From Janthinobacterium agaricidamnosum NBRC 102515 = DSM 9628 (GTDB lineage Bacteria > Pseudomonadota > Gammaproteobacteria > Burkholderiales > Burkholderiaceae_D): a DNA stretch of 64,000 bases. The notes under the pieces are model-generated. The model saw only the letters and a list, made by a program, of their open reading frames with translations. It did not search any database and was not told the origin of the DNA. Below, one piece after another: positions 6,060-22,512 of the stretch. The stretch's first letter is position 1. Each line of letters begins with the position of its first letter. A program made the translations under genes and the position numbers. The stretch covers positions 4,147,753 through 4,211,752 of the forward strand of contig NZ_HG322949.1 of NCBI RefSeq assembly GCF_000723165.1, read 5' to 3'.

Positions 6060-6989
6060 TCACAGATCCAGCGACCAGGTTTCGGCGATCAAGTCCTTGC
6101 CGTAACTATGGGTGGCGTGTTGTTCGATCAGCTGGAAGCCGGCCCGTTCATAATTGCGGCGGGCTTCCTGTTGCACATTGTTGGTCCCCAGGATTAACTT
6201 TTCATAACCCGCCAGTCTGGCGAAGCGCACGCATTCGGCCACCAGCGTCTTGCCGATGCCGAGCCCCCTGGCGCCCGGTTCGACGTACAGCAGGCGTATC
6301 TTGGCGCTCACGGCATCATGCCGGACCACGAACACGGAACCGACGATTTTGCCCGCCTTCTCGGCGATCCAGCCGTGGTCCGAGACGGGATCGAAGTCGC
6401 GGATATATTGTGCGGCGATCTCGGCGACCAGCGCTTCGAATTCCTGGTTCCAGCCATACTCTTGCGCGTACAGCACGCCATGCCGGTGCACCACCCAGCC
6501 GATATCGCCCGCTTGCGGATCGCGCAGCAGATACGGCGCCGGGGGCTGCGCGCCGGCGTCCAGCAATTGTTCGACCTGCGCCATCGCATCGACCAGTTGC
6601 ACCTGTTCCGGCACCGACAGCGGTTCCAGCATGGCGATGATTTCAAGCCGCGAAGCATCGCTCAGCGGAACTATCGTCGCCACTCCGTGCCCGGTCAGTT
6701 GCAAGGTCGCGATGCGGCCATCGACCGTGGAGCGGGACTTTGTCACCAGGCCCTTTTTCTCGAATCCGCCGACCACCCGGCTCAGGTAGCCGGCATCGAG
6801 TCCCAGTTCGCGGCACAGGTCGGCAGTCGCCAGCGCCGGCCGCTGCGCCAATTCGAACAGGATGCGTACTTCCGTCAACGAAAATTCGCTGTCGAGCAGG
6901 TATTCATGCAGCAGCCCCATCTGGCGGGTATAAAAACGATTAAAGCGGCGCACGGATTCCGCCCGGGCCACAAGTTGCTGATCTGACAT
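6060..6989 (-). CDS. MarR-type HTH fused to a GNAT acetyltransferase
   Basis: The product has 309 residues. Residues 1-145 form a MarR-like winged helix (FSLTEVRILFELAQRP, LGLDAGYLSRVVGGFEKKGL, wing STVDGRIATLQLT). Residues about 155-309 form a GNAT domain with the acetyl-CoA loop GARGLGIGKTLV and the ending NYERAGFQLIEQHATHSYG. This fusion is a known bacterial family, but the acetylated substrate is generally unknown. An inverted repeat just upstream could be an autoregulatory site. Convergent with the amidohydrolase gene, the stops being 3 nt apart. Confidence 0.85.
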   Translation of the reverse strand: MSDQQLVARAESVRRFNRFYTRQMGLLHEYLLDSEFSLTEVRILFELAQRPALATADLCRELGLDAGYLSRVVGGFEKKGLVTKSRSTVDGRIATLQLTGHGVATIVPLSDASRLEIIAMLEPLSVPEQVQLVDAMAQVEQLLDAGAQPPAPYLLRDPQAGDIGWVVHRHGVLYAQEYGWNQEFEALVAEIAAQYIRDFDPVSDHGWIAEKAGKIVGSVFVVRHDAVSAKIRLLYVEPGARGLGIGKTLVAECVRFARLAGYEKLILGTNNVQQEARRNYERAGFQLIEQHATHSYGKDLIAETWSLDL

Positions 6990-7523: not shown

Positions 7524-8555
7524 ATGAATTTTCAACAATTACGGACCATCCGCGAACTGCCCCGCCACCGCTTCAACCTGACCCGGATGGCCAGCGCCAT
7601 GGGCATGACGCAGCCTGGCATCAGCCGCCATATCCGCGACATTGAAGAAGAGATGGGCATCGCCATCTTCGAGCGCAGCGGCAAGCGCATCACCGGCCTG
7701 AGCGACTCGGGCCGGGCCATCCTGCCTATCGTCGAGCGCCTGCTGATCGAGGCCGACAAACTGCAAGGCGCCAACCTCGAATATTCGACGCTCGCCAGCG
7801 GCGTGCTGGCCATCGCCGCCACGCATACCCAGACCCGCTACGCGCTGCCGCAAGCGGTGCTGGGATTTCGCAGCGCGTTTCCGCAGGTGCGCATCGCGCT
7901 GCGGCAAAACACCCCGGAAGACATCGCGAAGTCGGTGATCTCGGGCCAGGCGGACATCGGCATCGCCACCGAAGGCCTGGCGGCCTATCCGGAACTGGCC
8001 GCCTTCCCATGCTACCGCTGGAGCCACCAGGTGCTGGTACCGGACAGCCATGCGCTGCTGGAGCGCGGCCCGCTGACGCTGCGCGACCTGGCTGAATTCC
8101 CGCTGCTGACCTACGACCATGGCTTCACCGGCCGGCGCCATATCGACCAGGCGTTCGCCGCCACCGGCTTGCGTCCCGACGTGGTGCTGACGGCGATGGA
8201 TTCCGACGTCATCAAACACTATGTGCAGCTCGGCCTCGGGGTCGGCGTGCTGGCGTCGGTGGCGTTCGACGCCGAACATGACCAGGGCTTGCGGGCGCTC
8301 GACGCCAGCCACCTGTTCGCCGCCAGCACCACCTGGCTGGCGGTCCGGCGCGGCGCCTACCTGCGCAGCTACACCTATGAATTCATGCGCCATTTCGCGC
8401 CGCAGCTGACGCGCCTGGCCATCGACCGCGAGCTGCGCGGCGAGGCGCACGGCGCATCCGCGCCGGTGGCCCGGGCCGGCGCGCCTGTGCCCTGGCAAAT
8501 GCTGGCGGCGGCCGCAACAGATATGCAAAAACAGCATATCGACATCGCATTTTAA
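7524..8555 (+). CDS. CysB/Cbl-like LysR-family regulator
   Basis: The product has 343 residues. The LysR helix-turn-helix is at about 1-60 (MTQPGISRHIRDIEEEMGI). The effector domain carries hallmarks of CysB and Cbl: THTQTRYALP, YDHGFTGRRHIDQAF, AMDSDVIKHYVQLGLGVGV and LRSYTYEFM. These proteins control sulfate-starvation genes and sense O-acetylserine, N-acetylserine or adenylyl sulfate. The ATG at 7524 matches the family start (MNFQQLR versus MKLQQLR in CysB). It is first in a co-directional set ending with a flavin monooxygenase at 16382. A C-terminal tail of about 40 residues goes beyond typical Cbl. Confidence 0.9.
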   Translation: MNFQQLRTIRELPRHRFNLTRMASAMGMTQPGISRHIRDIEEEMGIAIFERSGKRITGLSDSGRAILPIVERLLIEADKLQGANLEYSTLASGVLAIAATHTQTRYALPQAVLGFRSAFPQVRIALRQNTPEDIAKSVISGQADIGIATEGLAAYPELAAFPCYRWSHQVLVPDSHALLERGPLTLRDLAEFPLLTYDHGFTGRRHIDQAFAATGLRPDVVLTAMDSDVIKHYVQLGLGVGVLASVAFDAEHDQGLRALDASHLFAASTTWLAVRRGAYLRSYTYEFMRHFAPQLTRLAIDRELRGEAHGASAPVARAGAPVPWQMLAAAATDMQKQHIDIAF

Positions 8556-8641
8556 TCGTGGCGATCCATATGCCCGTCACCTGCGCCAGCTCTCCGGCAG
8601 CAACCCGCCGATCCACTGAACCTCACACAGGAGCACACCCC

Positions 8642-9724
8642 ATGTCCGCACCCATCGACACGCTCTGGTACACCCGCTGCCCGGCGCCCACGCCGTTCGG
8701 CATCGCCATCCAGCAAGGCTGGCTGGCGCAGGAATTCGCCGCCGACGGCTTGCACATCAAGGCCTTGCAAGACGCCGACGACCCGAATATACGGCGCTCG
8801 CATTTCACCCACTCGCAACCGCACTCGTTCCGCCAGGGCGGCAATATCCCGGCGCTGTGGGCGCGTGCCTCCGGCGCCGCCACGCGCGTGATCGGCCTGA
8901 CCTGGGTCGACGAATTCCAGGGCTTGCTGGCCTTGCGCGGCAGCGCCATCGCGAGCCCGGGACAACTGCGCGGCAAGCGCTTCGGCCTGCCGAAAAACCT
9001 GGCCTCCGGAGTGGTCGACTTCCACCGCGCCACCGCGCTGCGCGGCTTCAGCACGCTGCTCGACGTGGCCGGCCTGACGCTCGACGACGTGCAACTGATT
9101 GACCTGCCCTACGCCCCGCTCGGACTGGCCGACGCCAGGCCGGTCGACGACCAGGGTTTTGCGCGCTTGCTGCGCACTCACGGCCAGCAAGAGTTCAGCC
9201 GGGAAGCGCATGCGCTGATCAGCGGCGAAGCCGATGTGGTGTTCGCCAAGGGCGCGACCGGACTGGCCGCCGCCAACCTGGCCCAGGCCGACGTGATTAT
9301 CGACATCAGCCAGCAAGGCAACCGTTTGCTGCACGCGAATAACGGCGCGCCGCGCCCGCTGACCGTCGACCAGGCCCTGCTCGATGCCCGCCCCGACCTG
9401 GTGGCGCGGGTGCTGGCGCAAGCCATCGCGGCAGGCCGCTGGGCCGAAGCCCATCCGGCCGAAACCAGCGCCTACATCGCGCGCGAAACCAAAAGCCCCG
9501 AGCTGTGGGTGCGCCATGCCTATGGGCCGCGACTGCACCACAGCCTGCACATCGACCTGGCCCCGGACTCGGTGGCGGCGCTCGACAATTTCAAGCACTT
9601 CCTGCATCGCAGCGGCTATCTGCCGGCCGACTTCGACATCCAGCAGTGGATCGATCCGCAGCCGCTGCGCCAGGCGCTGCAACTGCTGGATGCCCGCGGC
9701 AACAGTGCCGGGCTGGCCGCCTGA
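8642..9724 (+). CDS. DszB-like sulfinate desulfinase candidate (periplasmic-binding-protein fold, no signal peptide)
   Basis: The product has 360 residues and would routinely be labelled a sulfonate ABC substrate-binding protein, yet there is no signal peptide. It resembles DszB (2-hydroxybiphenyl-2-sulfinate desulfinase): DTLWYTRCPAP corresponds to DTLTYSNCPVP, and HFTHSQPHSFRQGGNIPAL to HFTYDQPAYTRFGGEIPPL. The DszB catalytic Cys27, His60 and Arg70 match Cys13, His54 and Arg64 here, with the same His-Arg spacing. Cytosolic C-S cleavage of an organic sulfinate to sulfite is therefore proposed. Genes for a SfnG/SsuD-type monooxygenase and an importer follow. The physiological substrate is unknown; the DszB comparison is from memory of the family. 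Confidence 0.65.
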   Translation: MSAPIDTLWYTRCPAPTPFGIAIQQGWLAQEFAADGLHIKALQDADDPNIRRSHFTHSQPHSFRQGGNIPALWARASGAATRVIGLTWVDEFQGLLALRGSAIASPGQLRGKRFGLPKNLASGVVDFHRATALRGFSTLLDVAGLTLDDVQLIDLPYAPLGLADARPVDDQGFARLLRTHGQQEFSREAHALISGEADVVFAKGATGLAAANLAQADVIIDISQQGNRLLHANNGAPRPLTVDQALLDARPDLVARVLAQAIAAGRWAEAHPAETSAYIARETKSPELWVRHAYGPRLHHSLHIDLAPDSVAALDNFKHFLHRSGYLPADFDIQQWIDPQPLRQALQLLDARGNSAGLAA

Positions 9725-9778
9725 TCCGGCTCATCCAACGCATCCACCCCATACGCCAGCAGAAAGAGCCATCCGCAC

Positions 9779-11374
9779 ATGCCCTCATATTTACACCGTT
9801 CCTGCGCCGCCGCGCTGTTTTTCCTGGCCTTGGCGAGCGGCGCCGCGCCGGCCGCGCCGGTGGCCGGCGGCACGCTCAACTTTGTCGTCACGCCGGAACC
9901 GCCGTCGCTGCTGAACCTGGCCACCAGCGCGGTGCCGGTGCTGAAAGTAAGCAGCAAGGTCACCGAAGGCTTGCTGGCCTACGATTTCAATTTCAATCCG
10001 ACCCCGCAACTGGCGACCGCATGGAGCATCAGCCCGGACGGCAAGCGCTACACATTCACGCTGCGCCGCGGCGTCAAATGGCATGACGGAAAACCGTTCA
10101 CGTCGGCCGACGTGGCGTTTTCGCTGGAGCTGCTGAAAAAAGTTCACCCGCGCGGCAAGAGCACGTTCGCCAACCTGGCCGCAGTGCGCACGCCGGACCC
10201 GTACACGGCGGTGCTGGAACTGTCGCAGCCGGCGCCGTACCTGATCAAGGCCTTCGCCGCATCGGAGTCGCCGATCGTGCCCAGGCATATTTACCAGCAC
10301 GGCGACGCGCTGTCGAATCCCAATAACATCGCGCCGATCGGCACCGGCCCGTTCAAGTTTTCCAAATGGGTGCGCGGCAGTTACATCGAGTATCTGCGCA
10401 ACCCGGACTACTGGGACAAGCCACGGCCCTACCTGGACAAGATCATCGTCAAGTTCATTCCCGACGCGGCAGGACGCGCGATCGCGTTCGAGAACGGCAG
10501 CGTCGATCTGGGCGGCGACACGCCGGTGCCGCTGGGCGACCTGGCGCGGCTGAAAACCAATCCGAAGCTGGGTCTCGAAACGTCCGGCTACCAGTTCGAG
10601 GCCGGCCCGCTGCGGCTGGAATTCAATCTCGACCAGCCGATACTGGGCAAGCTGGCGGTGCGCCAGGCGATTGCCCACGCGCTGCAGCGCGAGATCATCA
10701 AGAGCGCGGTGTTCTATGGCTACGCGACTGTGATTTACGGCCCTATCCTGCCGGCCAGTCCCTACTACAGCGACAGCGCGGCGCCGTACCGGTTCGACCT
10801 CAAGCAAGCCAATGCGCTGCTCGACCAGGCCGGTTATCCGCGCCGCGCCGGCGGCAACCGTTTTACGCTGACGCTGGACCCGCTGCCGATCGGCGACGCG
10901 CCGGCGCGCACGGCCAACTACATCAAGTCGGCGCTGGCGCGGATCGGCATCGGCGTGACGATCCGGGCCCAGGACTTGCCGGCCTACCTGAAGCGTATCT
11001 ACACCGACCGCCAGTTCGATTTCGCCGTCAACGGCATGAGCAATCTGTTCGATCCGACCGTCGGCGTGCAGCGGCTGTATTGGTCGCAGGGCTTCCGCCA
11101 GGGCGTGCCGTTCACCAATGCGTCGCACTTCAGCCATCCCGAAGTCGACCGCCTGTTCGCGCTGGCGGCGGTGGAAACCGACCAGGCCAGGCGGCTGGCC
11201 CAGTTCACGCAGATCCAGCAAATCCTCGCTCGGCAACTGCCCGACATCAACCTGGTCGGCCCGCAGCAAGTGACGCTGTTTAACAAGCGGGTGCACGACC
11301 ATACGCCGACGCCGAACGGCCTCGACGGCAATTTCGCCACGCTGTATTTAACCCCCATGAATTTGACCCCATGA
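9779..11374 (+). CDS. Peptide/opine-type ABC transporter substrate-binding protein
   Basis: The product has 531 residues. A Sec signal (residues 1 to about 26, AALFFLALASGAAPAAP) precedes an SBP_bac_5 domain with the family phrases LATAWSISPDGKRYTFTLRR, VKWHDGKPFTSADV and GTGPFKFSKWVRG. This is the cluster C type used for peptides, glutathione, nickel-opine and other solutes. Its stop overlaps the start of the first permease by 4 nt, so the importer is one transcript. Given the sulfur enzymes around it, an organosulfur substrate is likelier than plain peptides, but that is inference. Confidence 0.88.
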   Translation: MPSYLHRSCAAALFFLALASGAAPAAPVAGGTLNFVVTPEPPSLLNLATSAVPVLKVSSKVTEGLLAYDFNFNPTPQLATAWSISPDGKRYTFTLRRGVKWHDGKPFTSADVAFSLELLKKVHPRGKSTFANLAAVRTPDPYTAVLELSQPAPYLIKAFAASESPIVPRHIYQHGDALSNPNNIAPIGTGPFKFSKWVRGSYIEYLRNPDYWDKPRPYLDKIIVKFIPDAAGRAIAFENGSVDLGGDTPVPLGDLARLKTNPKLGLETSGYQFEAGPLRLEFNLDQPILGKLAVRQAIAHALQREIIKSAVFYGYATVIYGPILPASPYYSDSAAPYRFDLKQANALLDQAGYPRRAGGNRFTLTLDPLPIGDAPARTANYIKSALARIGIGVTIRAQDLPAYLKRIYTDRQFDFAVNGMSNLFDPTVGVQRLYWSQGFRQGVPFTNASHFSHPEVDRLFALAAVETDQARRLAQFTQIQQILARQLPDINLVGPQQVTLFNKRVHDHTPTPNGLDGNFATLYLTPMNLTP

Positions 11375-12354
11375 ACCGTCTGCCACGCTTGATCAAGGCG
11401 CTGCGGCGCGCGCTGCTGTACGCGCTGCCGACCGTGCTCGGCATCGTCATCCTCAACTTCCTGCTGCTGCAACTGGTGCCGGGCGACGCCGCCGACGTGC
11501 TGGCCGGCGAATCCGGTTCGGCCACGGCGGAAACGATGGCGATGATGCGCAGCCATTTCGGACTCGACCTGCCGCTCTGGCACCAGTTGCTGAATTACCT
11601 GAATCACCTGGCCCATTTCAGCCTCGGCTTTTCGCCGCGCTTCAATATGCCGGTGATGGAACTGATCTGGAGCCGGTTGCCGAACACGCTGCTGCTGATG
11701 GCCGGCGCGCTGCTCATTTCGGTGCTGCTCGGCATCCTGTGCGGCGTGGTGATGGCGGCGTGGGCCGGCAAGTGGCCGGACCGCGTGCTGACCTTATTGT
11801 CGCTGCTGCTGTATTCGACGCCCGGCTTCTGGATCGGCCTGATGGCGGTGGTGCTGTTTTCGGTGCACCTGGGCTGGCTGCCCAGCGACGGCAGCATGAC
11901 CATCGGCGCCGCGCTGACCGGCTGGGACGCGCTGCGCGACCGCCTCAGCCACGCGCTGCTGCCGGCGCTGGCGCTGTCCAGCGTGTTCATCGCCATCTAT
12001 GCGCGGCTGACCCGGGCCGCGATGCTGGAAGTGCAGACCCTCGATTATGTGCGCACCGCCGAAGCCAAGGGCCTGCATCCATTCTTTATCCAGCTGCGCC
12101 ACGTGCTGCGCAACGCACTGATCCCGGTCACCACGGTGGCCGGCATCCACCTCGGTAATTTGCTGGGCGGCGCGGTCGTCATCGAAACCGTGTTCAGCTG
12201 GCCCGGCCTGGGCCGGCTGGCGCTGGAAGCGGTGCAGGGACGCGACTACGCCGTGTCGCTCGGCGTGCTGCTGCTGTCGTCGTTCATGGTGATCTTCGCG
12301 AATCTGCTGATCGATGTGCTGCAAGCGTGGCTGGACCCCCGAATCAAGGCTTGA
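11371..12354 (+). CDS. ABC transporter permease, DppB/OppB type
   Basis: This 327-residue inner-membrane permease has an N-terminal helix (LPTVLGIVILNFLLLQLVPGD), a long periplasmic segment, then five further helices. The cytoplasmic EAA loop EAKGLHPFFIQLRHVLRNAL contacts the ATPase. The starting ATG overlaps the previous stop. With the next gene it should form the heterodimeric channel of the importer. Confidence 0.9.
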   Translation: MNRLPRLIKALRRALLYALPTVLGIVILNFLLLQLVPGDAADVLAGESGSATAETMAMMRSHFGLDLPLWHQLLNYLNHLAHFSLGFSPRFNMPVMELIWSRLPNTLLLMAGALLISVLLGILCGVVMAAWAGKWPDRVLTLLSLLLYSTPGFWIGLMAVVLFSVHLGWLPSDGSMTIGAALTGWDALRDRLSHALLPALALSSVFIAIYARLTRAAMLEVQTLDYVRTAEAKGLHPFFIQLRHVLRNALIPVTTVAGIHLGNLLGGAVVIETVFSWPGLGRLALEAVQGRDYAVSLGVLLLSSFMVIFANLLIDVLQAWLDPRIKA

Positions 12355-12358
12355 AACG

Positions 12359-13351
12359 ATGGAACCGACGACTATTGACGAACCGGCCCGGACTGCCGCC
12401 ACGCCCGCGCAGCAGCACAATCCGCACAATCTGCGCATCAATCTGGCGCCGCCGCTACCGGCCATGCGGCCGGCCGTCCCGGCGCCCGCCAGCGCGGTGA
12501 CACGGCGCCCAGGCAGCCAGGCGCTGCGCCGCTACCTGCGCAACCCCGCCGCGATGGCCGGCGCCATCTTGCTGCTGCTGATCGTGCTGATGGCCCTGGC
12601 CGCGCCCTATTGGTATCCGGGCGACCCGCTCGACATGGTGGCGCAGCCGCTGCTGTGGCCGGGCCAGGATACGCAATACTGGCTCGGCACCGACTCGCTG
12701 GGACGCGACATGCTGGCCGGCGTCATGCACGGCGCCCGCGCCTCGCTGCTGATCGGCGTCGCGGCGGCCGCCGTCGGACTGTCGATCGGCACGCTGGCCG
12801 GCGCCTGCGCCGGCTATTTCGGCGGCCGCATCGACAGCGCGCTGGTGCGCTTGATGGAGCTGTTCCAGGCCACTCCGTCATTCCTGCTGATGATCGTCAT
12901 CGTGTCGATCGTGCCGCCGACCATCGGTATCATCGCGCTGACCATCGGCATCACCTCGTGGACCACGGTGGCGCGGCTGGTGCGGGCCGAATTCCGCTCG
13001 CTGAAACAGCGCGACTTCGTGCTGGCCGCGCGCAGCCTCGGCTATAGCGACAGCCGCATCATCTTCGTCGAAATCCTGCCCAACGCGCTGCCGCCGATTA
13101 TCGTCACCACCTCGGTGATGGTGGCCAGCGCCATCCTGATGGAATCGGCGCTGTCCTTCCTGGGCCTGGGCGATCCGAACCGGGTCAGCTGGGGCAGCCT
13201 GATCGGCAGCGGCCGCGACATGCTGCGCAGCGCCTGGTATTTGACGGCGATTCCCGGCAGCGCGATCATCGTCGCGGTGCTGTCCCTGAACCTGGTGGGC
13301 GACGGCTTGAACGACGCGCTGAACCCACGCCTGCGGAGCCGATCAGAATGA
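12359..13351 (+). CDS. ABC transporter permease, DppC/OppC type
   Basis: The product has 330 residues. A long non-conserved cytoplasmic N terminus (about 60 residues, Pro/Ala rich) precedes the OppC N-terminal helix (LRRYLRNPAAMAGAILLLL) and the permease domain, including TDSLGRDMLAGVMHGAR and the EAA loop ARSLGYSDSRIIFVEILPNA. The ATG at 12359, 4 nt after the upstream stop, is preferred; the frame open from 12314 lies inside the previous gene. Its stop overlaps the ATPase start by 4 nt. Confidence 0.88.
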   Translation: MEPTTIDEPARTAATPAQQHNPHNLRINLAPPLPAMRPAVPAPASAVTRRPGSQALRRYLRNPAAMAGAILLLLIVLMALAAPYWYPGDPLDMVAQPLLWPGQDTQYWLGTDSLGRDMLAGVMHGARASLLIGVAAAAVGLSIGTLAGACAGYFGGRIDSALVRLMELFQATPSFLLMIVIVSIVPPTIGIIALTIGITSWTTVARLVRAEFRSLKQRDFVLAARSLGYSDSRIIFVEILPNALPPIIVTTSVMVASAILMESALSFLGLGDPNRVSWGSLIGSGRDMLRSAWYLTAIPGSAIIVAVLSLNLVGDGLNDALNPRLRSRSE

Positions 13352-15135
13352 GCCTGCTGCTGGAAGTGAACCAGCTGGACGTGCGTTTCGGCGCCCACCA
13401 TGCGGTGCGCGGCCTGGATTTTTCCATCGCCGCCGGCGAGACGCTGGCGCTGGTCGGCGAGTCCGGCTGCGGCAAATCGAGCACCGCGCTGGCGCTGATG
13501 CGGCTGCTGCCGGCCAGCGCCCGCGTCAAAGGCCAGGTGCTGTTCGAGGGACAAGACCTGGTGACGCTGCCGCCGCCGGCGTTGCGCGCGCTGCGCGGCA
13601 ATGCGATCTCGATGATTTTCCAGGAACCGATGACGTCGCTCAATCCGGTGCTGACGATAGGCCGGCAAATCGTCGAAGTGCTGCGGCTGCACCAGCCGCT
13701 GTCGGCTGGCGCGGCGCGCCGACGCGCGATCGAATTGCTGGAACTGGTCAAGCTGCCCGAACCCCGCCGCCGCATCGACGACTATCCGCACCAGTTGTCG
13801 GGCGGCCAGCGCCAGCGCGTGATGATCGCGATGGCGGTGGCGTGCCACCCGCGGCTGCTGATCGCCGACGAGCCGACCACCGCGCTGGACGTGACGATCC
13901 AGGCCCAGATACTGGAATTGCTGGATGCGCTACGGCGCGAGTTTTCGATGGCGCTGCTGCTGATCACCCACGACCTGGGCGTGGTCGGCCAATGGGCCGA
14001 CCGGGTCGCGGTGATGTATGGCGGCGAAAAGCTGGAACAGGGGACGACCGGACAAATCTTCACGCGGCCGCAGCACTCTTACACGCGCGGCTTGCTGGGC
14101 GCGTCGCTGACGCTGGAGCGCAACCTGCATTATCGCCAGCAGCGGCTGCTGGAAGTGAGCGCCAGCATCGATCCGCTCAGTGGCCAGCGCAGGTTTATCC
14201 TCAGCCACGGCAGCCAGCCGCCGGCACGGCAAGCGCAGACCGAGCTTCGGCTGGCCAGCTCCGGGACCGAAGAACCTGCAAGCGCCGGCCAGCCGCTGCT
14301 GCGGCTGACCGGACTGGCAACCCACTATGCGTCGGAACAAGGCCTGGTGCGGGCGGTCGATGGCGTGTCGTTCGACATCGCCGCCGGCGAAACCGTCGGC
14401 CTGGTCGGCGAATCCGGCTGCGGCAAGTCGACGCTGGGCAAGACCATCTTGCGCCTGATCGAACCGTCGGCCGGCCAGATCCTGTTCCGCGGCGCCGATA
14501 TCACGCGCCTCAGCCAGCGCCAGTTGCAGCCGTTCCGGCGCCAGGCGCAAATGATTTTCCAGGACCCGTACGCCTCGCTGAACCCGCGCCACAGCGTCGC
14601 CGATATCCTCGACAGCGCGCTGCGCGTGCATGGCGTCGGCGATCGCGCGGAACGGCAGCGGCGCGCAAGCGGCATCATCGACCGGGTCGGCTTGCCGGCG
14701 GCGGCGCTGCGGCGCTTTGCGCACGAATTCTCCGGCGGCCAGCGGCAGCGCATCGGCATCGCCCGCGCGCTGGTGCTGCAACCGTCGCTGCTGATCTGCG
14801 ACGAGCCGGTGTCGGCGCTGGACGTCTCGGTGCAAGCGCAGATCCTCAACCTGCTGGTCGACCTGAAGCAGGAATTCGGCTTGTCCTACCTGTTCATCTC
14901 GCACGATTTGTCGGTGCTGCGCTATATCGCCGACCGCGTGCTGGTGATGAATGGCGGCAAGATCGTCGAAAGCGGCGACCATCGCAGCATCTGGCATACG
15001 CCCGTCAACCCGTACACGCGCAGCCTGATCGGCGCCGTGCCGACCTCGGCCTTTGCCGCCGGCATCGGCCAGCGACAACCGCCGCCCGTGCACGAGCAGA
15101 CGCTGCCGTTCTCGTATTACCGCTTCGCGCTGTGA
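13348..15135 (+). CDS. Double ABC ATPase (DppD-DppF fusion)
   Basis: The product has 595 residues and carries two complete nucleotide-binding domains in one chain. Walker A motifs GESGCGKS sit at about 37-44 and 354-361, with signatures LSGGQRQR and FSGGQRQR, Walker [13 protein letters not shown] and [12 protein letters not shown], and switch histidines in ITHDLG and ISHDLS. The Opp/Dpp-specific C-terminal extension follows each domain. The layout matches GsiA and YejF rather than the usual split DppD/DppF pair. It energises the two preceding permeases. Confidence 0.92.
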
Positions 15136-15200
15136 ACCCCAACGCCTCGGAATCCGGCCAGTCACGACTGGCCCAACTCACCCACCTTACGGAAAACATC

Positions 15201-16382
15201 ATGTCGATCGCCAGCGCCATTCCTTCTTCCACCACCGCCAGCGGCTTTGCCGCGCCGGCCGATTTCCCCGACAGCCCGGTGTCGCAAATCCTGCGCCAGC
15301 CGATGATGCTGGGCCTGTTCCTGCCGATCCAGGCCGGCGGCTGGAGCGCCTCGCACCTGCAGCGCAGCACCAGCTGGACCTTCGATTACAACCTGGCGCT
15401 GGTGCAGCGGGCCGAGGAATTCGGCTTCGACCTGGCGTTCGCGCTGTCGCAATGGCTGCCCAAGGGCGGTTACGGCGGCGTCTTCAACGGCGAGGCGATC
15501 GACTCGTTCACGTCGCTGGCGGCGATGACGGCAGTCACCAAACGCATCATCCTGGTGGCCACCACCCACGTGCTGTACGGTCCCTGGCACCCGCTGCACT
15601 TCGCCAAATACTGCGCCACGCTGGACCATGTGTCGAAAGGCCGCTGGGGCATCAACGTGGTCACCGGCCACCGCGCGGTCGAGCATGAAATGTTCGGCTG
15701 GCAGCGCATCGAACATGACCACCGCTATGCGATGGCGGCCGAATTCCTCGACGCGGCGCAGCACCTGTGGGCGGCCGACGATAATTATTCGGTGACGCCG
15801 GCGCTGTCGTCATGGAAGCTCGACAAGGCCTTCGTCACGCCGCGGCCGCAGTATGGCCGGCCGCTGCTGGTCAACGCCACCGGTTCCGACGCCGGCATCG
15901 ATTTCGCCGCGCGCCATTCCGACCTGGTGTTCATCACCAGCCCGGGCGGCGGCGCCATCGCCGACGCGCTGGCCTCGCTGCCGGCGCATACCGCCAAGGT
16001 CAAGGCGGCCGGCGCCGCCGTCGGCCGCAAGCTGCGCACGCTGATCAACCCGATGGTGGTATGCCGCGACACGGAACAGGAAGCGTGGGCCTACCACGAT
16101 GAAATCGTGGCCCATGTCGACCCGGTCGCCAGCATGCAGAATTTTAATAGCGACGCGCACGCCTGGCGCGGCCGCAAGGACCATGGCCAGGACGCGGCGC
16201 GCGCGGTCGGCGGCAATATCCGCCTGATCGGCAGCCCGGAACAAATCGTCGAGCAGATCATCGCCCTCAAGGAGGCCGGCATCGACGGCATCCAGTGCAG
16301 CTTCTTCGACTTCAAGCCGGACCTGGAGTTTTTCGGCGAACGCGTGCTGCCGCTGATGAAGCAAGCCGGCCTGCGCCTGTAA
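15201..16382 (+). CDS. LLM-class flavin-dependent monooxygenase, SfnG/SsuD-like
   Basis: The product has 393 residues. It is a luciferase-like TIM barrel (RSTSWTFDYNLALVQRAEEF; GPWHPLHFAKYCATLDHVSK; GRWGINVVTG; IRLIGSPEQIVEQI) closest in pattern to FMNH2-dependent dimethylsulfone monooxygenase SfnG and alkanesulfonate monooxygenase SsuD. The reaction would be oxidative C-S cleavage giving a sulfinate or sulfite. No flavin reductase is encoded nearby, so FMNH2 must come from elsewhere. The first about 30 residues (Ser/Ala rich) have no match to these families; a later start is possible but none has a better ribosome-binding site. Confidence 0.8.
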   Translation: MSIASAIPSSTTASGFAAPADFPDSPVSQILRQPMMLGLFLPIQAGGWSASHLQRSTSWTFDYNLALVQRAEEFGFDLAFALSQWLPKGGYGGVFNGEAIDSFTSLAAMTAVTKRIILVATTHVLYGPWHPLHFAKYCATLDHVSKGRWGINVVTGHRAVEHEMFGWQRIEHDHRYAMAAEFLDAAQHLWAADDNYSVTPALSSWKLDKAFVTPRPQYGRPLLVNATGSDAGIDFAARHSDLVFITSPGGGAIADALASLPAHTAKVKAAGAAVGRKLRTLINPMVVCRDTEQEAWAYHDEIVAHVDPVASMQNFNSDAHAWRGRKDHGQDAARAVGGNIRLIGSPEQIVEQIIALKEAGIDGIQCSFFDFKPDLEFFGERVLPLMKQAGLRL

Positions 16383-16415: not shown

Positions 16416-16693
16416 ATGACCGTCCTGCACATCTGGCGCAGTAATTTCATCCCGCTGCGCACGCCTGCGGTGCGGCGGTACCTGGCCGGCACCGGCATTT
16501 CGATGCTGGGCAACTGGCTGCAGCAGACGGCCCAGGCGCTGCGGGTGTACCAGTTGTCGGGTGGTTCGGCGGCGGCGCTGGGCACGGTATCGTTCTGCAC
16601 CGGCCTGCCGCCGCTGCTGTTCAGCTTTTTCTGTCGCCGTTCGTCAACCGCATCGCCCGCATGGGCCGCGCTGCTGATGCGCTGTCAGCAGAC
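16416..16693 (+). pseudogene. MFS_3-type exporter, frameshifted and truncated
   Basis: The first about 70 codons read as an EntS-like major facilitator protein (AVRRYLAGTGISMLGNWLQQ; FCTGLPPLLFSFF). Near 16630 the expected continuation, PFVNRIARMGR, moves into another frame, and at about 16694 the gene is cut by a fragment of an inverted-repeat element. Only about 90 of about 400 residues remain, so the carrier is dead. It may once have belonged to the organosulfur transcript. Confidence 0.75.
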
Positions 16694-16720
16694 GACGCTC
16701 ACTACCGGGACAGGTTCTTA
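16694..16720. repeat. Right-end fragment of the AGAGCCTATCCC inverted-repeat element
   Basis: GACGCTCACTACCGGGA is identical to the right end of the full element at 19370-19529, and the following bases differ from it at two positions (CAGGTTCTTA for TAGGCTCTTA). Only the right end is present. It lies exactly where the MFS reading frame is lost. Confidence 0.7.
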
Positions 16721-16722
16721 AG

Positions 16723-16790: not shown

Positions 16791-17810
16791 TCAAGCTTCA
16801 TTGCGCGGCTTGCGGCCGACAATCACGTGGCTGGGATCATTAAAACCGGGCGTCGATGGATGGCCGGTAACCACCAGGCTGTCGACCAGCGCCTCGTCCT
16901 CGGCGGTGAATTGATACTTCAGCGCGGGCAGGTAATCGTCCCATTGCTGTTCGGTGCGCGGGCCGGTGATGGCCGACGTGACCAGCTGGTTGTTCAGCAC
17001 CCAGGCCAGCGCGAACTGGCCGGCGCTGATGCCGCGTGCCTCGGCGTGCTGCTTGATCTGCTGCGCCAGTTGCAGCGACTCCGGGCGCCACTCGGTCTGG
17101 TGGATGCGCTGGTCGTTGCGGCCGGCGCGGCTGCCTTCCGGCGGCGGCAGCGTTGGATCATATTTACCGGTCAGCACGCCACGCGCCAGCGGGCTGAACG
17201 ACACCACGCCGACGCCATAATATTCCGCCGCCGACAGGTGTTCCGCTTCCGGCTGGCGGTTCGCCAGGTTGTAGCATGGCTGCGTCGCGGCCGGCCGGTC
17301 GACGCCGAGCAAGTCGGCGGTGCGCACGAATTCGGCCAGTTTCCAGGCCCGGTGATTCGACACGCCCCAGTAACGCAGCTTGCCGGCCTGGACCAGGTCG
17401 CTCAAGGCGCGCACGGTTTCTTCCGGACGCGTTTCATGGTCTTCGCGGTGCAAATAAAACAAGTCGATGTAATCGGTGCCCAGCCGTTGCAGACTGCTCT
17501 CGACCGACTGGATCAGGTTCTTGCGCGACGCGCCCTTGTCGTTCGGTCCGCTGGCGCCGGGATTCTGGTTGACGAACTTGGTCGCCAGCACCCACTGCTT
17601 GCGCCGCTCGGCGATCAGGCGCCCCACCACCTCTTCCGACTGGCCGCCGTTGTAGACGTTGGCGGTATCGATGAAATTGACACCCTGCTCGAACGCCTTG
17701 TCGGTGATGCGGCGCGCCACCTGTTCATCGGTCTGGCCGCCGAACATCATGGTGCCGAGGCACAAGGACGACACCTTGATGCCGGTCTGTCCCAAATTTC
17801 TATACGTCAT
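16791..17810 (-). CDS. Aldo/keto reductase
   Basis: This 339-residue (alpha/beta)8 NADPH-dependent reductase has the full catalytic tetrad Asp48, Tyr53, Lys78 and His121 (NFIDTANVY, LATKF, YLHRED). SNHRAWKLAEF and SFSPLARGVLTGKY are family signatures, and the C-terminal ITGPRTEQQWDDYL contacts NADP. The sequence is of the YghZ/Kv-beta-like group that reduces aldehydes and ketones. It is a single gene with no informative partner. Confidence 0.9.
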   Translation of the reverse strand: MTYRNLGQTGIKVSSLCLGTMMFGGQTDEQVARRITDKAFEQGVNFIDTANVYNGGQSEEVVGRLIAERRKQWVLATKFVNQNPGASGPNDKGASRKNLIQSVESSLQRLGTDYIDLFYLHREDHETRPEETVRALSDLVQAGKLRYWGVSNHRAWKLAEFVRTADLLGVDRPAATQPCYNLANRQPEAEHLSAAEYYGVGVVSFSPLARGVLTGKYDPTLPPPEGSRAGRNDQRIHQTEWRPESLQLAQQIKQHAEARGISAGQFALAWVLNNQLVTSAITGPRTEQQWDDYLPALKYQFTAEDEALVDSLVVTGHPSTPGFNDPSHVIVGRKPRNEA

Positions 17811-18031
17811 GAACTACGCTCCTGTTGAATGAATGGGCGAAACGGCCAGCCGCCGCTTCAGCTGCGCTGACTATATCGGCAAAGATTTCACGTCCAAACG
17901 AATTTTTTCACGCTTGTTTATGATTCCCCGGCGCCGCAACTGCGCGGCGCCGTAACAACATATCCCTATGCCCAATGATTGGTTTCCCGGGCGCCGCGGC
18001 TTGACCATATTGATACTCGCCGCCGCGCCAA

Positions 18032-19336
18032 CTAGGCTGCCTGCCTGGTTTTGTTACTTTGAACCCACAGGGACTGGCCCGGCGCGCTGCGCACGTCCGG
18101 CCAGTCGTGCCGCGACGTCGCGGCGTGGCCCTGTTCGAATGCGGCAATCGACTTGCGCACCGCCTCGAAGCCGTGCTCCAGCATCTGCGCCTCGTAGTCG
18201 TGCAGCGCGTCCAGCAGCCCCTTTCCGCCATCGCGGTGGGCCAGGATCTGGCGCAGAAAAAACGCCGCATCGGCCATCGCCGTGTTGGCGCCCAGCGCGC
18301 GGAAATACGTCATGCTGTGGATCGCGTCGCCGAGCAGCGTCACCGCCCGGGTCGGCCACGGCTCGACCGGCAGCGAGGTGCGGATCGGCAGCACGCCGAG
18401 GGTCGAGGTATCGCTCAGGTCGAACAACTGACGGTAGGCCGGATGCCACTGCTCCACCACCTGGTTGATGAAGCCGCGCAGTTGCGCACCGTCGTAGCCG
18501 AACAGTTCATCGTCCGGCGGCAGTTGCTCGCGCAAGCCGCTGAGCGCCCACATGATGTAGCTTTTGGCATTGTCGAACAACAGGCCGCCGTGCTCGCCGA
18601 GGGCGGCCGTGTCCTCGCCGCCGATCACGCCGATGGCTTCGTGACCGGGACGGAATTCATGACTGGTGAAGAACAGGTTGTAGCCGCTGTCCGATTTCAC
18701 CGACACGGTTTTTTTATAGAATAATTCCGGCACGCTGCGCTTGACCGCGTCCGTCAATGCGATCTTGCCGGCCAGCCGGCGCGCGCCGGTATCGACCCAG
18801 CGCGCATGCGGCACCAGTTGCCGCCGTACCCGCGAATTGGCGCCGTCCGCGCCGACCAGCACGTCGCCGACCACGCTGCTGCCGTCGGTGAAATAGGCGA
18901 CCACCTTGCCATCGGCGCGCTCCTCGTACCGGTCATAGGTTTTCTGGTAGTGCAGCACGCCGTCCAGGCCGGACAGCAGCACCTGGCGCAGCGTGATGCG
19001 GCTGACCGATTTTTCGCGCTCGCTGTGTTCCAGTTCCGGGTCCGGGGTACGGCGCGGCAGTTGCTCCAGTTGTTCCGACAGCAGCGCGTATTCGCCCGGC
19101 GCGGCGGCGTAGGTCGATGCGAACGACTGGTACAGCGCATCCGGCAGGCAGGCCTTCAGCGCATCGATGCCGCGGCTGCGGATTTGCAGCCGGAAGCCCT
19201 GCAAATAATCGGTGCGCGCCGCGTCGCGTTCATACACGGCGACGCCGATGCCGTGCTTCTTCAAGCCTTGCGCCAGCAGCAGGCCGCCCGGGCCGGCGCC
19301 GATGACGATGACTTGCAATCCTTGGTACTCGCTCAT
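18032..19336 (-). CDS. FAD-dependent aromatic-type monooxygenase
   Basis: The product has 434 residues. The Rossmann motif GAGPGG at 13-18 with the acidic end VAVYERD binds ADP-ribose, the mid-chain VLVGADGANSRVRRQL is the DG motif, and TLLGDAIHSM is the GD motif contacting FAD ribityl. That is the class A flavoprotein hydroxylase pattern (salicylate hydroxylase, TetX, PgaE relatives). Substrate unknown. The neighbours do not form a recognisable aromatic pathway. The ATG at 19336 directly starts the Rossmann strand, so it is well placed. Confidence 0.88.
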   Translation of the reverse strand: MSEYQGLQVIVIGAGPGGLLLAQGLKKHGIGVAVYERDAARTDYLQGFRLQIRSRGIDALKACLPDALYQSFASTYAAAPGEYALLSEQLEQLPRRTPDPELEHSEREKSVSRITLRQVLLSGLDGVLHYQKTYDRYEERADGKVVAYFTDGSSVVGDVLVGADGANSRVRRQLVPHARWVDTGARRLAGKIALTDAVKRSVPELFYKKTVSVKSDSGYNLFFTSHEFRPGHEAIGVIGGEDTAALGEHGGLLFDNAKSYIMWALSGLREQLPPDDELFGYDGAQLRGFINQVVEQWHPAYRQLFDLSDTSTLGVLPIRTSLPVEPWPTRAVTLLGDAIHSMTYFRALGANTAMADAAFFLRQILAHRDGGKGLLDALHDYEAQMLEHGFEAVRKSIAAFEQGHAATSRHDWPDVRSAPGQSLWVQSNKTRQAA

Positions 19337-19369
19337 GCTTTACCTTTCGCTGCTTCAAAAATGCTACTT

Positions 19370-19529
19370 AGAGCCTATCCCATTAGATGAATACGCCCTC
19401 TTCTGGCGCTCCTCAGGAACGGGGACTGCGTTGATCGTCGTCGCGTGGCCCGCCACGCGTCCTCCTCACGCCTGGTCCGCGCTCCCGATGCGCGGCCAGA
19501 ACAAGACGCTCACTACCGGGATAGGCTCT
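19370..19529. repeat. 160-bp element bounded by AGAGCCTATCCC inverted repeats
   Basis: The left arm AGAGCCTATCCC (19370-19381) and right arm GGGATAGGCTCT (19518-19529) are perfect 12-bp inverted repeats. The interior is GC rich, has its own short palindromes (for example CGCGTGGCCCGCCACGCG at 19442-19459) and no coding capacity. It has an internally deleted relative at 22529-22575 and a right-end fragment at 16694-16720. This resembles a MITE or long REP element. Confidence 0.75.
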
Positions 19530-19667
19530 TAAATGAGCGGAGCCTGTTTCAGCGCGATCAACTGCTCGACCGTTTGTTCATGACAGAGACAGCGCGCCGG
19601 CGCCCAATGCGCCGATAAAACTATGCCGCGATATCAGCATGGCGCTCTCCGCTTCGATGCCAGTGCA

Positions 19668-22199
19668 TCACCAGCTCACATCCAGGCGGGCATAGTAATA
19701 ACCGCCGTCGATGCCGTACGGCGAATACCAGCTATACGACGGACTGGTGACGGGAATCGCGAAAAATTTCTTCGCTTCCGCATTCAGCTCGTTCGGCCGC
19801 TTGCCGAACAGGTTGTCGGCGCCAATCGACAGGCGCGCATGTTTATTCAATGCGTAGCCGAGGTTCAAGTTGGTGATCAACGCGGCATCGACCACTTCGT
19901 CGCGCGCGGCCGCCACCGAACTGGCGTTGCTGACCTTGGAATAGCGGGTTTCCTTGATCGTCAGGTCGAACTTGTCGACCTTCCACAGCGCGCTCAGCGA
20001 CGTGATGTTCTTCGGATTGTTTTCCGTCAGCGCGCTGATGGTGGCCCGGTTATAAGAAATGCCGCTGTCGGCCAGCACCGCCGGAATGCCGGCCAGGCTG
20101 TTGACCTTGGTCTGGTTCTGGTTGCTGGTGAAGATCCAGTCGATCTTGCCGTAACCGGCCGGCAGCAGCGTGCGGTGGTCGATCACCAGGTCCAGACCAC
20201 GGGTGACGGTGCTGGCCGCGTTGGTGAAATAGGTCACCGAGGTGATCGCCTCGGCGCCCAGGCCGGCGCTGTTGAGGATATTGTTGACGGTGGCGCCTTG
20301 CAGCGTCGGCGTCGAAATGATGCGGTTGCGGATCGCGATCTGGTAGGCGTCCAGGCTGATATTGGTCGACGCCGACGGTTTCAGCACGATCCCGACACTT
20401 TGATTGACCGAGCGTTGCGGCTGCAAGTCCTGCGCCCCCAGCGCCCTGGCGACGACGCTGTTGGCCGGCGCCGACAGCGCGAACGACTGGCGCAGCGCGC
20501 CCGTCAGCGGATCGGTGGTGTAACCGCCGACCTTGGTGGTGTAATACTGCTGCTGCAGCGTCGGCGCCGAAAAGCCGTTGCTGAGCGTGGCGCGCAGCGC
20601 GACCCCATCGCTGACTTCATAACGGGTCGACAGCTTGCCGGTGCGGACGTTGCCAAAGTCGTTGTAATGCTCGAAGCGGGCCGCCGCCGCGCCGCTCCAC
20701 TTCTGCGTGAAGGCCTGGCTGAAATCGGCGTACAGCGCGTCGTTGGTGCGCGCATGCGAGCCGGCCACGTCGGGCGAGAACCCGGCCATGCCGGACGCGC
20801 CCGAATTGGGCCGCTGTCCGGTCAAGGGGCCGGAAGTGAACGCGTAGCCGCCATTCGCATACGAAGCCCACTCGCCGGCCTGCTGCTGGAACTGCTCGCG
20901 GCGGTGCTCGTAGCCGGCCGCTACCGACAGCGGCTTGGCGAACCAGCGGGTCTGGACGTTGCGCGTCAGGTCCAGGTTGGTGACCCACTCACCCGATACC
21001 AGCGCGCCGTCGTAAAAGTCATGCTGGCCCTGGTAAGCCGGTCCCAGCGAGCCGTTCAGGGAATCGCGGGTAGCGATGTCGGCCTTGTCGTGGCCATAAC
21101 TGCTGCTCAAGTCCCAGTTCCAGCCCAGCAGGCCGGTGCCGCGCGCACCGGCCACCAGTTGGTAGTCGTTTTCCCGGGTTTCAAACTTCGGGATAAAACC
21201 GTCCGGATAAACGTCGGCATAGTTTTGCGGCGAATTCGCCGGCCGGTAATAACCCCAGCCTTGCGAGCGCCGGTTGCCGGCCGTTCCATACGAATACAGC
21301 GTCACGTTCGGCCCGACCGGCAGCTCGGCGTTATAAGCCAGGTTATAGGTTTCGCCGGCCGGTTTACCCATGATCATCTTGTAGCGCGACTGGCTGGTCT
21401 CGCGCGGGTCGTCGCCGAAATACAGCTTGGTGGCCTGTGGAATCGGGCCCTGGTCGTTGGTGGCGCGGTGCGCGTCGGCGCTGGCGCTGATGCTGATGAA
21501 GCCGCCGTCCTGGCCCAGCTCGAAACCCTGGTTGAACAGCAGGTTATTGGTCTTGCCCTTGCCGTCGAAATCGCCGACGGTGTCGCCGTACTGGCCGTAC
21601 AGATAGCTCAGGGCGCCGCCGCTGCCATTGGTCTTCAGGATGATGTTGATCACGCCGCTGATGGCGTCCGATCCGTACTGCGCGGCGGCGCCGTCGCGCA
21701 GGATTTCGATATGGTCGACGGCGCTCGCCGGTATCAGGTCCAGGTCGGTCGGCGACTGGCCATTGATGATCAGCGGCGTCTTGTGGCGGCGCTTGCCGTT
21801 GACCAGCACCAGCACGCTGTTGGCGTCCAGGCCGCGCAGCGTGGCGGTGGCCACGGCGATGCCGGTCTGGCCCTTGAAGCCGGGCGTATTGCTGTACGAC
21901 GGATACAGCGTGGCCAGCGCGTCGCGCAGGTTTTGCTTGCCGGTCGCGGCCAGTTCCCTGGCGCCGACCACGTCGATCGGCGACAGGCTCTTGGCAATGC
22001 TGCGCGCTTCGCCGCGGGCGCCGGTGACCACCACCACGTCCTGCGCCCGGACCGCCGTGGCATCGGCCGCGGCGGCGCCCTGCGCACTCTGCCCGAACGC
22101 CGGCGCAGCCGCGCACAGGCCGCCGACCAGCATCGACAGCACCGGCAAACGCGGCGCACGAGCGTGAGATTTTTTTGTTGCGACTGACGTAAGCGGCAT
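19668..22199 (-). CDS. TonB-dependent outer-membrane receptor
   Basis: The product has 843 residues: a signal peptide (to about residue 35, LVGGLCAAAPAFGQ), a TonB-box-like VVVVTGARGEAR, a plug domain (about 60-180; LRGLDANSVLVLVNGKRR, IEILRDGAAAQYGSDAISGV), then a 22-stranded barrel ending in an aromatic residue (YYARLDVSW). The plug pattern resembles receptors for organic ligands more than siderophore receptors. RBS GGGAG lies 7 nt before the ATG. It is monocistronic; the only co-oriented neighbour downstream is the FAD monooxygenase, across the repeat element. The ligand cannot be inferred. Confidence 0.9.
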   Translation of the reverse strand: MPLTSVATKKSHARAPRLPVLSMLVGGLCAAAPAFGQSAQGAAAADATAVRAQDVVVVTGARGEARSIAKSLSPIDVVGARELAATGKQNLRDALATLYPSYSNTPGFKGQTGIAVATATLRGLDANSVLVLVNGKRRHKTPLIINGQSPTDLDLIPASAVDHIEILRDGAAAQYGSDAISGVINIILKTNGSGGALSYLYGQYGDTVGDFDGKGKTNNLLFNQGFELGQDGGFISISASADAHRATNDQGPIPQATKLYFGDDPRETSQSRYKMIMGKPAGETYNLAYNAELPVGPNVTLYSYGTAGNRRSQGWGYYRPANSPQNYADVYPDGFIPKFETRENDYQLVAGARGTGLLGWNWDLSSSYGHDKADIATRDSLNGSLGPAYQGQHDFYDGALVSGEWVTNLDLTRNVQTRWFAKPLSVAAGYEHRREQFQQQAGEWASYANGGYAFTSGPLTGQRPNSGASGMAGFSPDVAGSHARTNDALYADFSQAFTQKWSGAAAARFEHYNDFGNVRTGKLSTRYEVSDGVALRATLSNGFSAPTLQQQYYTTKVGGYTTDPLTGALRQSFALSAPANSVVARALGAQDLQPQRSVNQSVGIVLKPSASTNISLDAYQIAIRNRIISTPTLQGATVNNILNSAGLGAEAITSVTYFTNAASTVTRGLDLVIDHRTLLPAGYGKIDWIFTSNQNQTKVNSLAGIPAVLADSGISYNRATISALTENNPKNITSLSALWKVDKFDLTIKETRYSKVSNASSVAAARDEVVDAALITNLNLGYALNKHARLSIGADNLFGKRPNELNAEAKKFFAIPVTSPSYSWYSPYGIDGGYYYARLDVSW

Positions 22200-22436: not shown

Positions 22437-22512
22437 GGGTCGTTAGCTCAGCTGGTAGAGCAGCGGACTTTTAATCCGTTGGTCGCAGGTTCGAATCCCG
22501 CACGGCCTACCA
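22437..22512 (+). tRNA. tRNA-Lys (anticodon UUU), slightly irregular
   Basis: This 76-nt cloverleaf has a D arm GCTC/GAGC, anticodon arm GCGGA-CTTTTAA-TCCGT (anticodon TTT), T loop TTCGAAT and encoded CCA at 22510-22512. The acceptor stem GGGTCGT/ACGGCCT has two G-U pairs (1-72 and 4-69), and the T stem GCAGG/CCCGC has an A-C mismatch at its third pair. The identity is clear but folding is weaker than expected for a housekeeping tRNA, so it may be a secondary or decaying copy. Confidence 0.85.

Follow-up and report, generated by a model that had tools for sequence, protein, structure and literature searches.

A candidate organosulfur-assimilation island combining a DszB-like protein with a peptide-type importer in Janthinobacterium

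Does a cluster of genes in Janthinobacterium agaricidamnosum that sets a relative of the desulfinase DszB beside a peptide-type importer and a flavin monooxygenase serve the assimilation of organic sulfur, and would such a route be of a new kind? The cluster lies in a stretch of 64,000 nucleotides, here called the window (C1:4147753-4211752 of the 5.95-Mb genome, a single contig). A first-pass annotation of this DNA had proposed an organosulfur function, and the evidence from sequence supports it: the active site of DszB is intact, the structure nearest to the luciferase-like flavin monooxygenase (LLM) is that of SfnG, and genes resembling sfnB/dszC and ntaA/dszA stand in the loci of relatives. 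The candidate desulfinase, the periplasmic solute-binding protein (SBP) and three genes added here to the locus are in addition poor in cysteine and methionine. The locus is judged to be an organosulfur-assimilation island with a probability of about 0.9. It would represent known chemistry in a new arrangement, a 4S-type pathway with a peptide-type importer, and not a new kind of pathway. The member genes, identified by reading of open reading frames (ORFs) and with Pfam and NCBIfam models, are as follows.

7524-8555, plus strand: LysR-type regulator of the CysB family (NF009327)
8642-9724, plus strand: DszB-like putative desulfinase of 360 amino acids (PDB sequence and fold matches)
9779-11374, plus strand: periplasmic solute-binding protein, SBP_bac_5 (PF00496)
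11371-12354, plus strand: permease of the OppB/DppB type (PF00528, BPD_transp_1; PF19300)
12359-13351, or from an upstream ATG at 12314, plus strand: permease of the OppC/DppC type (PF00528, PF12911; start-region sequence)
13348-15135, plus strand: fused ATPase of the OppD-OppF type with two ABC domains (PF00005 twice, oligo_HPY)
15201-16382, plus strand: LLM flavin monooxygenase, SfnG-related (Bac_luciferase; TIGR04021 the best NCBIfam model)
16791-17810, minus strand: aldo-keto reductase (AKR), a conserved partner (PF00248)
18032-19336, minus strand: FAD-dependent monooxygenase, a partner in some clusters (PF01494)
19668-22199, minus strand: TonB-dependent receptor, the likely outer-membrane gate (PF00593, PF07715)

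The seven ORFs between 7524 and 16382 all run on the plus strand, as first described, but the statement that most of them are coupled by overlaps was too strong. Overlaps are certain at two junctions, of four bases each (11371-11374 and 13348-13351), a third hinges on the ATG chosen for the second permease, and the remaining three gaps measure 86, 54 and 65 bases. Nor does the unit end at 16382, where the first-pass annotation had closed it: the AKR, FAD monooxygenase and TonB receptor genes (16791-22199, minus strand) belong to it as well, and these three members had been overlooked, as had the wide distribution of the gene set.

In a sequence search of the PDB, structures of DszB (2de2, 2de3) were the sole matches of the DszB-like protein. 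Residues C13, H54, R64 and G67 align with the DszB active site, given as C27, H60, R70 and G73 in an extract of PMC12168087; C13 is the only cysteine of the protein, at the catalytic position, and internal methionines are absent. All four residues were invariant in alignment A1, comprising 22 sequences (the DszB-like protein and 21 homologues of 46-83% identity). The complete set was found in 34 of 34 distinct close relatives (≥55% identity), and the Cys, His and Arg were retained in 111 of 133 distinct family sequences from the loci described below. These sets, and those used for amino acid composition, omit L126 (the same contig as L002), hits with less than 60% query coverage and translations interrupted by a stop; as L127 is the same contig as L012, 35 close-relative rows represent 34 distinct sequences and 134 rows represent 133. 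In the favoured mechanism of DszB, according to an extract of PMC6100217, C27 protonates the aromatic carbon, a mechanism that, if valid here, would call for an aryl, heteroaryl or vinyl sulfinate. The H60-S25 dyad of DszB appears in the same extract; the counterpart of Ser25 is Thr11, a position occupied by Thr in 115 and Ala in 18 of the 133 distinct sequences. Beside the catalytic Cys, R12 is Arg in 134 of 134 rows where DszB has Asn, and might hold an acidic group if the substrate is more polar.

Family members that are probably non-catalytic also exist, since Ser replaces the catalytic Cys in 21 of 134 rows, and 15 of these rows also carry Ile in place of His; one more row has Tyr for His. 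The Ser/Ile paralogues (L033, L035, L038, L039, L043, L044, L047, L048, L051-L053, L055-L057 and L066) lie near 7.2 kb of their stretches (L047: near 0.2 kb), on the opposite strand to the main copy, and may have evolved from the enzyme into a binding protein or sensor.

The nearest PDB entry to the LLM by sequence was 8t0u, SfnG of Pseudomonas fluorescens (2e-49). Its model, with a mean predicted local distance difference test score (pLDDT) of 83.7, likewise gave the SfnG structures 8t0u and 8t0w as top fold matches (E 7.4e-30), followed at about 3e-28 by a Bacillus LLM protein of unknown function and RutA, and resembled SsuD and MsuD at E values of about 8e-25 to 1e-21. The score for TIGR04021 (SfnG) was 195.9 bits against a cut-off of 382.95, and those for RutA (154/498 bits) and SsuD (TIGR03565, 88/518 bits) also fell short. 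Identification as SfnG proper, SsuD or RutA was rejected on these missed cut-offs, and on its scores the LLM is a separate subfamily related to SfnG. Of the identities first assigned, the CysB-family regulator, DszB-like protein and Opp-type importer stand, and the monooxygenase is to be called SfnG-related, not an SfnG equivalog. The 120 relatives listed for it, many of which bear the source name 'dimethyl sulfone monooxygenase', include Paraburkholderia, Burkholderia, Bradyrhizobium, Mesorhizobium and the cyanobacteria Tolypothrix, Aulosira and Scytonema.

The importer has the parts of a peptide-type (Opp/Dpp) system, namely an SBP_bac_5 protein, two BPD_transp_1 permeases and two ABC domains with oligo_HPY. 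The SBP scored 297 bits for PF00496 and has an N-terminal signal peptide by eye; its best PDB sequence match was AgaA, and others were named as heme-, peptide-, nickel- or agrocinopine-binding. All Gsi equivalog cut-offs were missed (GsiA 590/1077, GsiB 127/594, GsiC 240/463 and GsiD 198/484 bits), as were those for Dpp and Opp, and only the broad ATPase models PRK11308, NikD, NikE and CntD/F were reached. The LysR protein exceeded the cut-off of the CysB-family model NF009327 (410.3 bits, cut-off 402) and failed the equivalogs CysB (345/436) and Cbl (345/491).

For comparison, 79 loci with a DszB-like gene were assembled from the best 80 of 552 confirmed candidates and scored with scripted identity thresholds; 33 of these loci, from other genomes and with a DszB-like gene at least 55% identical, are termed close-relative loci. 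An SBP was present in all 33, the LLM in 31, the AKR in 30 and all four importer parts in 28, while SfnB-like, NtaA-like and SsuB-like genes occurred in 22, 21 and 7, respectively. The earlier claim of a peptide-type importer in place of an Ssu/Tau transporter thus holds at the locus and in 28 of 33 close-relative loci, yet with an SsuB-like gene nearby in seven. The LLM and DszB-like genes were separated by 23 to 95 bases in 18 of the 33. Twenty random 20-kb stretches of the host genome, the only genome used for this control, contained no module gene at the same thresholds (0/20 for each), the sole matches being to ABC ATPases at 21-31% identity in 3 of 20. Chance clustering was rejected on these grounds, as the parts recur together, rearranged, in 33 loci and are absent from the random stretches. 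Mere shared ancestry of one block is a poor explanation because gene order varies between groups; the gene set was indeed found again in other genomes, as had been suggested it should be sought, but in several orders and not in a single one. The LysR gene stands beside the locus only in Janthinobacterium sp. S3T4 (L002) among the 79 loci, and was rejected as a conserved member of the module because it occurs in 1 of 33 close-relative loci, a result rechecked under looser search settings.

In genome S3T4 the receptor and FAD monooxygenase fall outside stretch L002 and are visible in L126, where AKR, FAD monooxygenase and TonB receptor form a single cluster, interspersed with one further gene each of the DszB-like, LLM and SBP types. 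Homologues of the FAD monooxygenase occur in clusters of S3T4 (L126), Bauldia (L077), Mesorhizobium (L167), Ensifer canadensis (L169) and S. meliloti pSymA (L170). In L012 (equal to L127, Robbsia andropogonis) and L128, SfnB-like and NtaA/DszA-like genes replace the SfnG-like LLM beside the DszB-like gene, AKR and importer. The 46 more distant loci contained LLM in 10, AKR in 4, SBP in 11, SsuD-like genes in 25 and SsuB-like genes in 12, and about half of them are another kind of locus. A further 20 LLM loci, picked from 51 genomes with an LLM for having no listed DszB-like gene beside it (some carry one elsewhere), held SfnB-like genes in 17, NtaA-like in 11, SsuB-like in 10, SBP with permeases and ATPase in 8 and AKR in 3.

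Across the order, a DszB-like match (E 1e-60) was found in 7 of 300 genomes and an LLM match (1e-100) in 2, both in the DszB-like locus. Within the genus, 19 of 40 genomes had a DszB-like gene, and the close type together with the LLM (E 1e-60) was confined to the window genome and S3T4. Sixteen genomes in the family of genome G119 carried a close DszB-like gene (E <1e-120), with an LLM within 5 kb on the same contig in 13, one such LLM containing a stop; in the remaining three, one DszB-like gene lay 1.7 kb from a contig end, and G383 and G349 had NtaA- and SfnB-like genes instead. Internal stop codons in both the DszB-like gene and the LLM of G573:C7 and in the LLM of G447:C2 suggest loss in some lineages.

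A DszB-like gene (E 1e-30) was carried by 82 plasmid records, of which 58 were typed as conjugative. Of the 20 plasmid LLM rows listed, at least eight had a DszB-like gene within 100 bases, six among the 60 of 82 DszB rows listed and two by reading of the regions. The plasmid clusters belong to Mesorhizobium, Rhizobium leguminosarum, R. indigoferae, Ensifer canadensis and S. meliloti 1021 (pSymA). All five share the AKR, two ATPases, two permeases, one or two DszB-like genes and acyl-CoA-dehydrogenase-like and NtaA-like genes; an SBP_bac_5 gene is present in four (not in E. canadensis by this search), and the LLM and FAD monooxygenase in three each. The Mesorhizobium plasmid cluster also has an annotated msuE FMN reductase. 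With DszC-like, DszA/NtaA-like and DszB-like genes together, the rhizobial clusters look like a 4S pathway provided with a peptide-type importer.

From this gene content we infer the reactions, their order, the class of substrate and the regulation as follows. An organosulfur compound would enter across the outer membrane through the TonB receptor, be captured by the SBP_bac_5 protein and be imported by the OppBCDF-type transporter. The FMNH2-dependent, SfnG-like LLM may then oxidise a sulfone beside the sulfur and break one C-S bond. The products would be a sulfinate and a carbonyl compound, either aldehyde or ketone, which the AKR would remove. The DszB-like enzyme would exchange the sulfinate group for a proton from its sole Cys and so release sulfite for cysteine synthesis. 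The CysB-family regulator would control the island, which is presumed to be used when sulfate is scarce. Were the substrate a sulfide, S-oxidation would have to be provided by the FAD monooxygenase of the island or by DszC/SfnB-like enzymes elsewhere in the genome. A complete chain from import through C-S cleavage and sulfinate to sulfite is rather likely on these homologies.

That the LLM and DszB-like protein catalyse consecutive steps is suggested by genes lying less than 100 bases apart in 18 of 33 loci and at least 8 of 20 listed plasmid rows. This proximity argues against two parallel routes sharing one importer, in which the LLM would cleave sulfonates to sulfite like SsuD or MsuD and the DszB-like protein would take another, ready-made sulfinate. 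Such a division is consistent with the fold matches of the LLM to SsuD and MsuD and with the many genomes that have an LLM and no DszB-like gene. It is nevertheless unlikely, with the alkanesulfonate monooxygenase model so far from its cut-off, SfnG the nearest structure, and a separate SsuD of 620 bits elsewhere in the host genome.

The predicted structure of the DszB-like protein (mean pLDDT 89.4) gave 2de3 as best fold match (E 2.2e-19), with SsuA behind at 3.0e-13; TM-scores by query length were 0.71-0.74 to DszB and about 0.50-0.67 to SsuA/Thi5 proteins. The protein scores for NMT1 in Pfam, and its relatives are mostly called 'substrate-binding protein' among named records, with a few named desulfurase or desulfurizing enzyme (P0046, P0063, P0078). 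The shared fold, the NMT1 score, these names and the Ser-for-Cys members of the family could be accounted for if the protein were a cytoplasmic binding protein or sensor of the SsuA/NMT1 type, the locus then comprising an importer and a monooxygenase that itself makes sulfite. That reading is distinctly improbable when set against the retention of all four active-site residues by the protein and its close relatives, and against the few relatives named as desulfurases. Moreover, no signal peptide was seen by eye (no predictor was run), as expected of a cytoplasmic protein; the Cys is residue 13, and the operon already has an SBP_bac_5 protein with matching permeases. The only Cys kept in a protein purged of sulfur is also the catalytic one. 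By active site and modelled fold, the DszB-like protein is very probably a desulfinase.

Cells starved of sulfur are expected to make proteins with little Cys and Met. The fraction of these residues (C+M) was compared with a background of 250 genes of the same genome, called by a simple codon-position G+C filter and having a mean of 0.0308. The DszB-like protein was lower than all 250, the SBP and TonB receptor each ranked at 1.6%, the FAD monooxygenase at 6.0% and the AKR at 6.4%. Pooling the ten genes gave P = 0.0008; of 68 contiguous ten-gene runs, none reached so low a value. The value for six genes picked after looking (DszB-like protein, SBP, LLM, AKR, FAD monooxygenase and TonB receptor), P = 0.00002, is descriptive. 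The SBP had a C+M of 0.0056, compared with 0.0271, 0.0346 and 0.0326 in the other three SBP_bac_5 proteins found in the genome. The TonB receptor had 0.0059 and one further background receptor, too small a sample for a control, 0.0198; low values in TonB receptors need not mean sulfur starvation, because a second receptor of the window (24554-27106) is also rather low at 0.0082.

Among the relatives, median C+M was 0.0031 for 133 DszB-like proteins, 0.0038 for 107 SBPs, 0.0089 for 38 AKRs, 0.0133 for 62 LLMs, 0.0069 for 57 NtaA-like proteins, 0.0077 for 49 SfnB-like proteins and 0.0020 for 15 amidases. The corresponding medians for the importer were 0.0308 for PermB (n=50), 0.0200 for PermC (n=49) and 0.0268 for ATPases (n=40). 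Other genes in the loci of relatives had a low median of 0.0138 (68 genes) and are not a neutral control, perhaps because those stretches hold further sulfur genes. Cys and Met are entirely absent from about 500 matched residues in each of four plasmid-cluster SBPs (L168 8282-9811 and 17613-19112; L165 12516-14024; L166 13665-15173). The depletion is an indirect sign of sulfur starvation, independent of homology to sulfur enzymes.

Several observations weigh against the organosulfur reading. The LysR protein, permeases, ATPase and LLM of the window genome have ordinary C+M, and the seven genes first described were only marginally poor when pooled (P = 0.048; six of them gave P = 0.061 in an earlier test). 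The LLM and DszB-like protein are not an obligate pair, as the LLM is often found without the other (51 of 299 genomes in the family of G119, compared with 30 of 299 for the DszB-like gene, both at 1e-60). In the close-relative loci, within the stretches as fetched, the TonB receptor was found in 5, the LysR gene in 1 and the FAD monooxygenase in 0 of 33. Between 7524 and 22199 there is no gene of the DszA or DszC type, so that a canonical dszABC set is lacking; genes of these types are found in the rhizobial clusters and at 1.986-1.990 Mb of the host genome. The LLM misses the cut-off for SfnG, and in fold it resembles RutA, an enzyme of non-sulfur chemistry, nearly as closely. This resemblance to RutA, the Bacillus LLM fold and the match of the SBP to AgaA would suit a catabolic locus for a sulfur-free compound (of the opine, peptide, pyrimidine or aminopolycarboxylate type) using RutA- or NtaA-like chemistry, but this is highly improbable given the CysB-family regulator, the DszB active site, the SfnB-like neighbours in relatives and the depletion of Cys and Met.

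Read as an organosulfur island, the locus resembles several known systems in part. With the 4S pathway (dszABC of Rhodococcus IGTS8, bdsABC of Gordonia terrae C-6) it shares a DszB-type desulfinase with the C27/H60/R70/G73 residues, preceded by a C-S-cleaving flavin monooxygenase, and rhizobial relatives also have acyl-CoA-dehydrogenase (DszC/SfnB)-like and NtaA/DszA-like genes. It differs in having an SfnG-like in place of a DszA-like monooxygenase, no DszC, a DszB identity of about 24%, and an added dedicated peptide-type importer, AKR and TonB receptor. As in the Sfn/Msu dimethylsulfone pathway of Pseudomonas and Acinetobacter, an SfnG-related monooxygenase is expected to give a sulfinate, and many relatives have SfnB-like neighbours. 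In that pathway MsuC and MsuD/SsuD oxidise methanesulfinate to sulfite by way of methanesulfonate, according to an extract of PMC13352529, whereas at this locus a desulfinase would take the sulfinate in one step. SsuEADCB and TauABCD likewise scavenge sulfur with an ABC importer and an oxygenase; the locus has no Ssu/Tau-type transporter, and the host keeps a separate Ssu set at 1.99 Mb. The importer is built like GsiABCD, Dpp and Opp (SBP_bac_5, two permeases, two ABC domains fused as in GsiA) but lies below the GsiA/B/C/D equivalog cut-offs.

The closest precedent comes from G. terrae C-6, in which growth on benzothiophene up-regulated a peptide-type transporter set adjoining an FMNH2 monooxygenase (GTC6_13080-13100), as well as another peptide-type set, apart from the bdsABC operon (extract of PMC3868597). 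The genes are of the same kinds as here and have neighbouring locus tags. Unlike the present locus, that set has no desulfinase among the up-regulated genes given in the extract, the bdsABC desulfinase being placed there elsewhere with sulfonate-type transporter genes. A search of open-licence papers yielded no description of a DszB-like gene with a peptide-type importer in proteobacteria, although subscription papers may contain one.

Known bacterial organosulfur routes centre on sulfonates, sulfate esters and methylated sulfur. A wider proposal is put forward tentatively, as one that may well not hold: that DszB chemistry, known from the thiophenes of fossil fuels, belongs to a widespread route acting on natural sulfur compounds of the aryl, heteroaryl or vinyl type. 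A polar substrate would be imported by the peptide-type importer, the LLM would cut the alkyl side of a sulfone to give an aryl sulfinate and an aldehyde, the latter removed by the AKR, and protodesulfination would free sulfite. Transfer between rhizobia and soil Betaproteobacteria, in part by conjugative megaplasmids, would have distributed the module. If so, plant-associated bacteria would reach a pool of soil and plant sulfur not yet linked to genes; more than 95% of soil sulfur is organic, according to a review abstract (PMC4267179). A conserved module of importer, monooxygenase and desulfinase in relatives of Burkholderia and in nodule bacteria would mean that a desulfurisation route has been overlooked, and would supply new enzymes of the DszB type; these are of interest for biodesulfurisation, as DszB catalyses the rate-limiting step of the 4S pathway (extract of PMC6100217). 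An intact active site serves to tell likely enzymes from the C-to-S paralogues.

Two more sulfur islands are found in the host genome, at 1.986-1.998 Mb (L150) and 1.868-1.884 Mb (L148/L149). L150 encodes an NtaA-family monooxygenase (561 bits, cut-off 280), an SsuE FMN reductase (210, cut-off 164), SsuA (322, cut-off 299) and SsuD (620, cut-off 518), together with an SsuB-like ATPase that misses its cut-off (353/395), a DszC/SfnB-like protein (353/850 bits on the DszC model, 303/431 on the SfnB model) and, by ORF reading, an SsuC-like permease and a MetQ-type set. This island could supply FMNH2 and S-oxidation to the window locus. L148/L149, assigned partly by reading, contains SsuB-like, SsuC-like, acyl-CoA-dehydrogenase-like and SsuA-like genes, an SsuD-like LLM (238/518), TonB receptors and an NtaA-family gene.

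Copies of tRNA-Lys flank the locus, two to the left of the window (C1:4144921 and 4145088) and one to the right of the TonB receptor (window 22437-22512; C1:4170189). In S3T4 the island likewise has tRNA-Lys nearby, along with a homologue of a window gene that reads as yigZ-like (22617-23267), but in a different arrangement. The neighbourhood is perhaps an insertion hot spot; a search for the insertion site returned mostly tRNA copies. A 64-base direct repeat, 83% identical between its copies at 16658-16721 and 19469-19532, brackets the AKR and FAD monooxygenase genes, and its first copy closes a short ORF (16416-16721) that looks, by reading, like the start of a major facilitator superfamily transporter. 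Upstream of the locus, positions 6060-6989 on the minus strand encode a single protein with MarR regulator and GNAT acetyltransferase domains.

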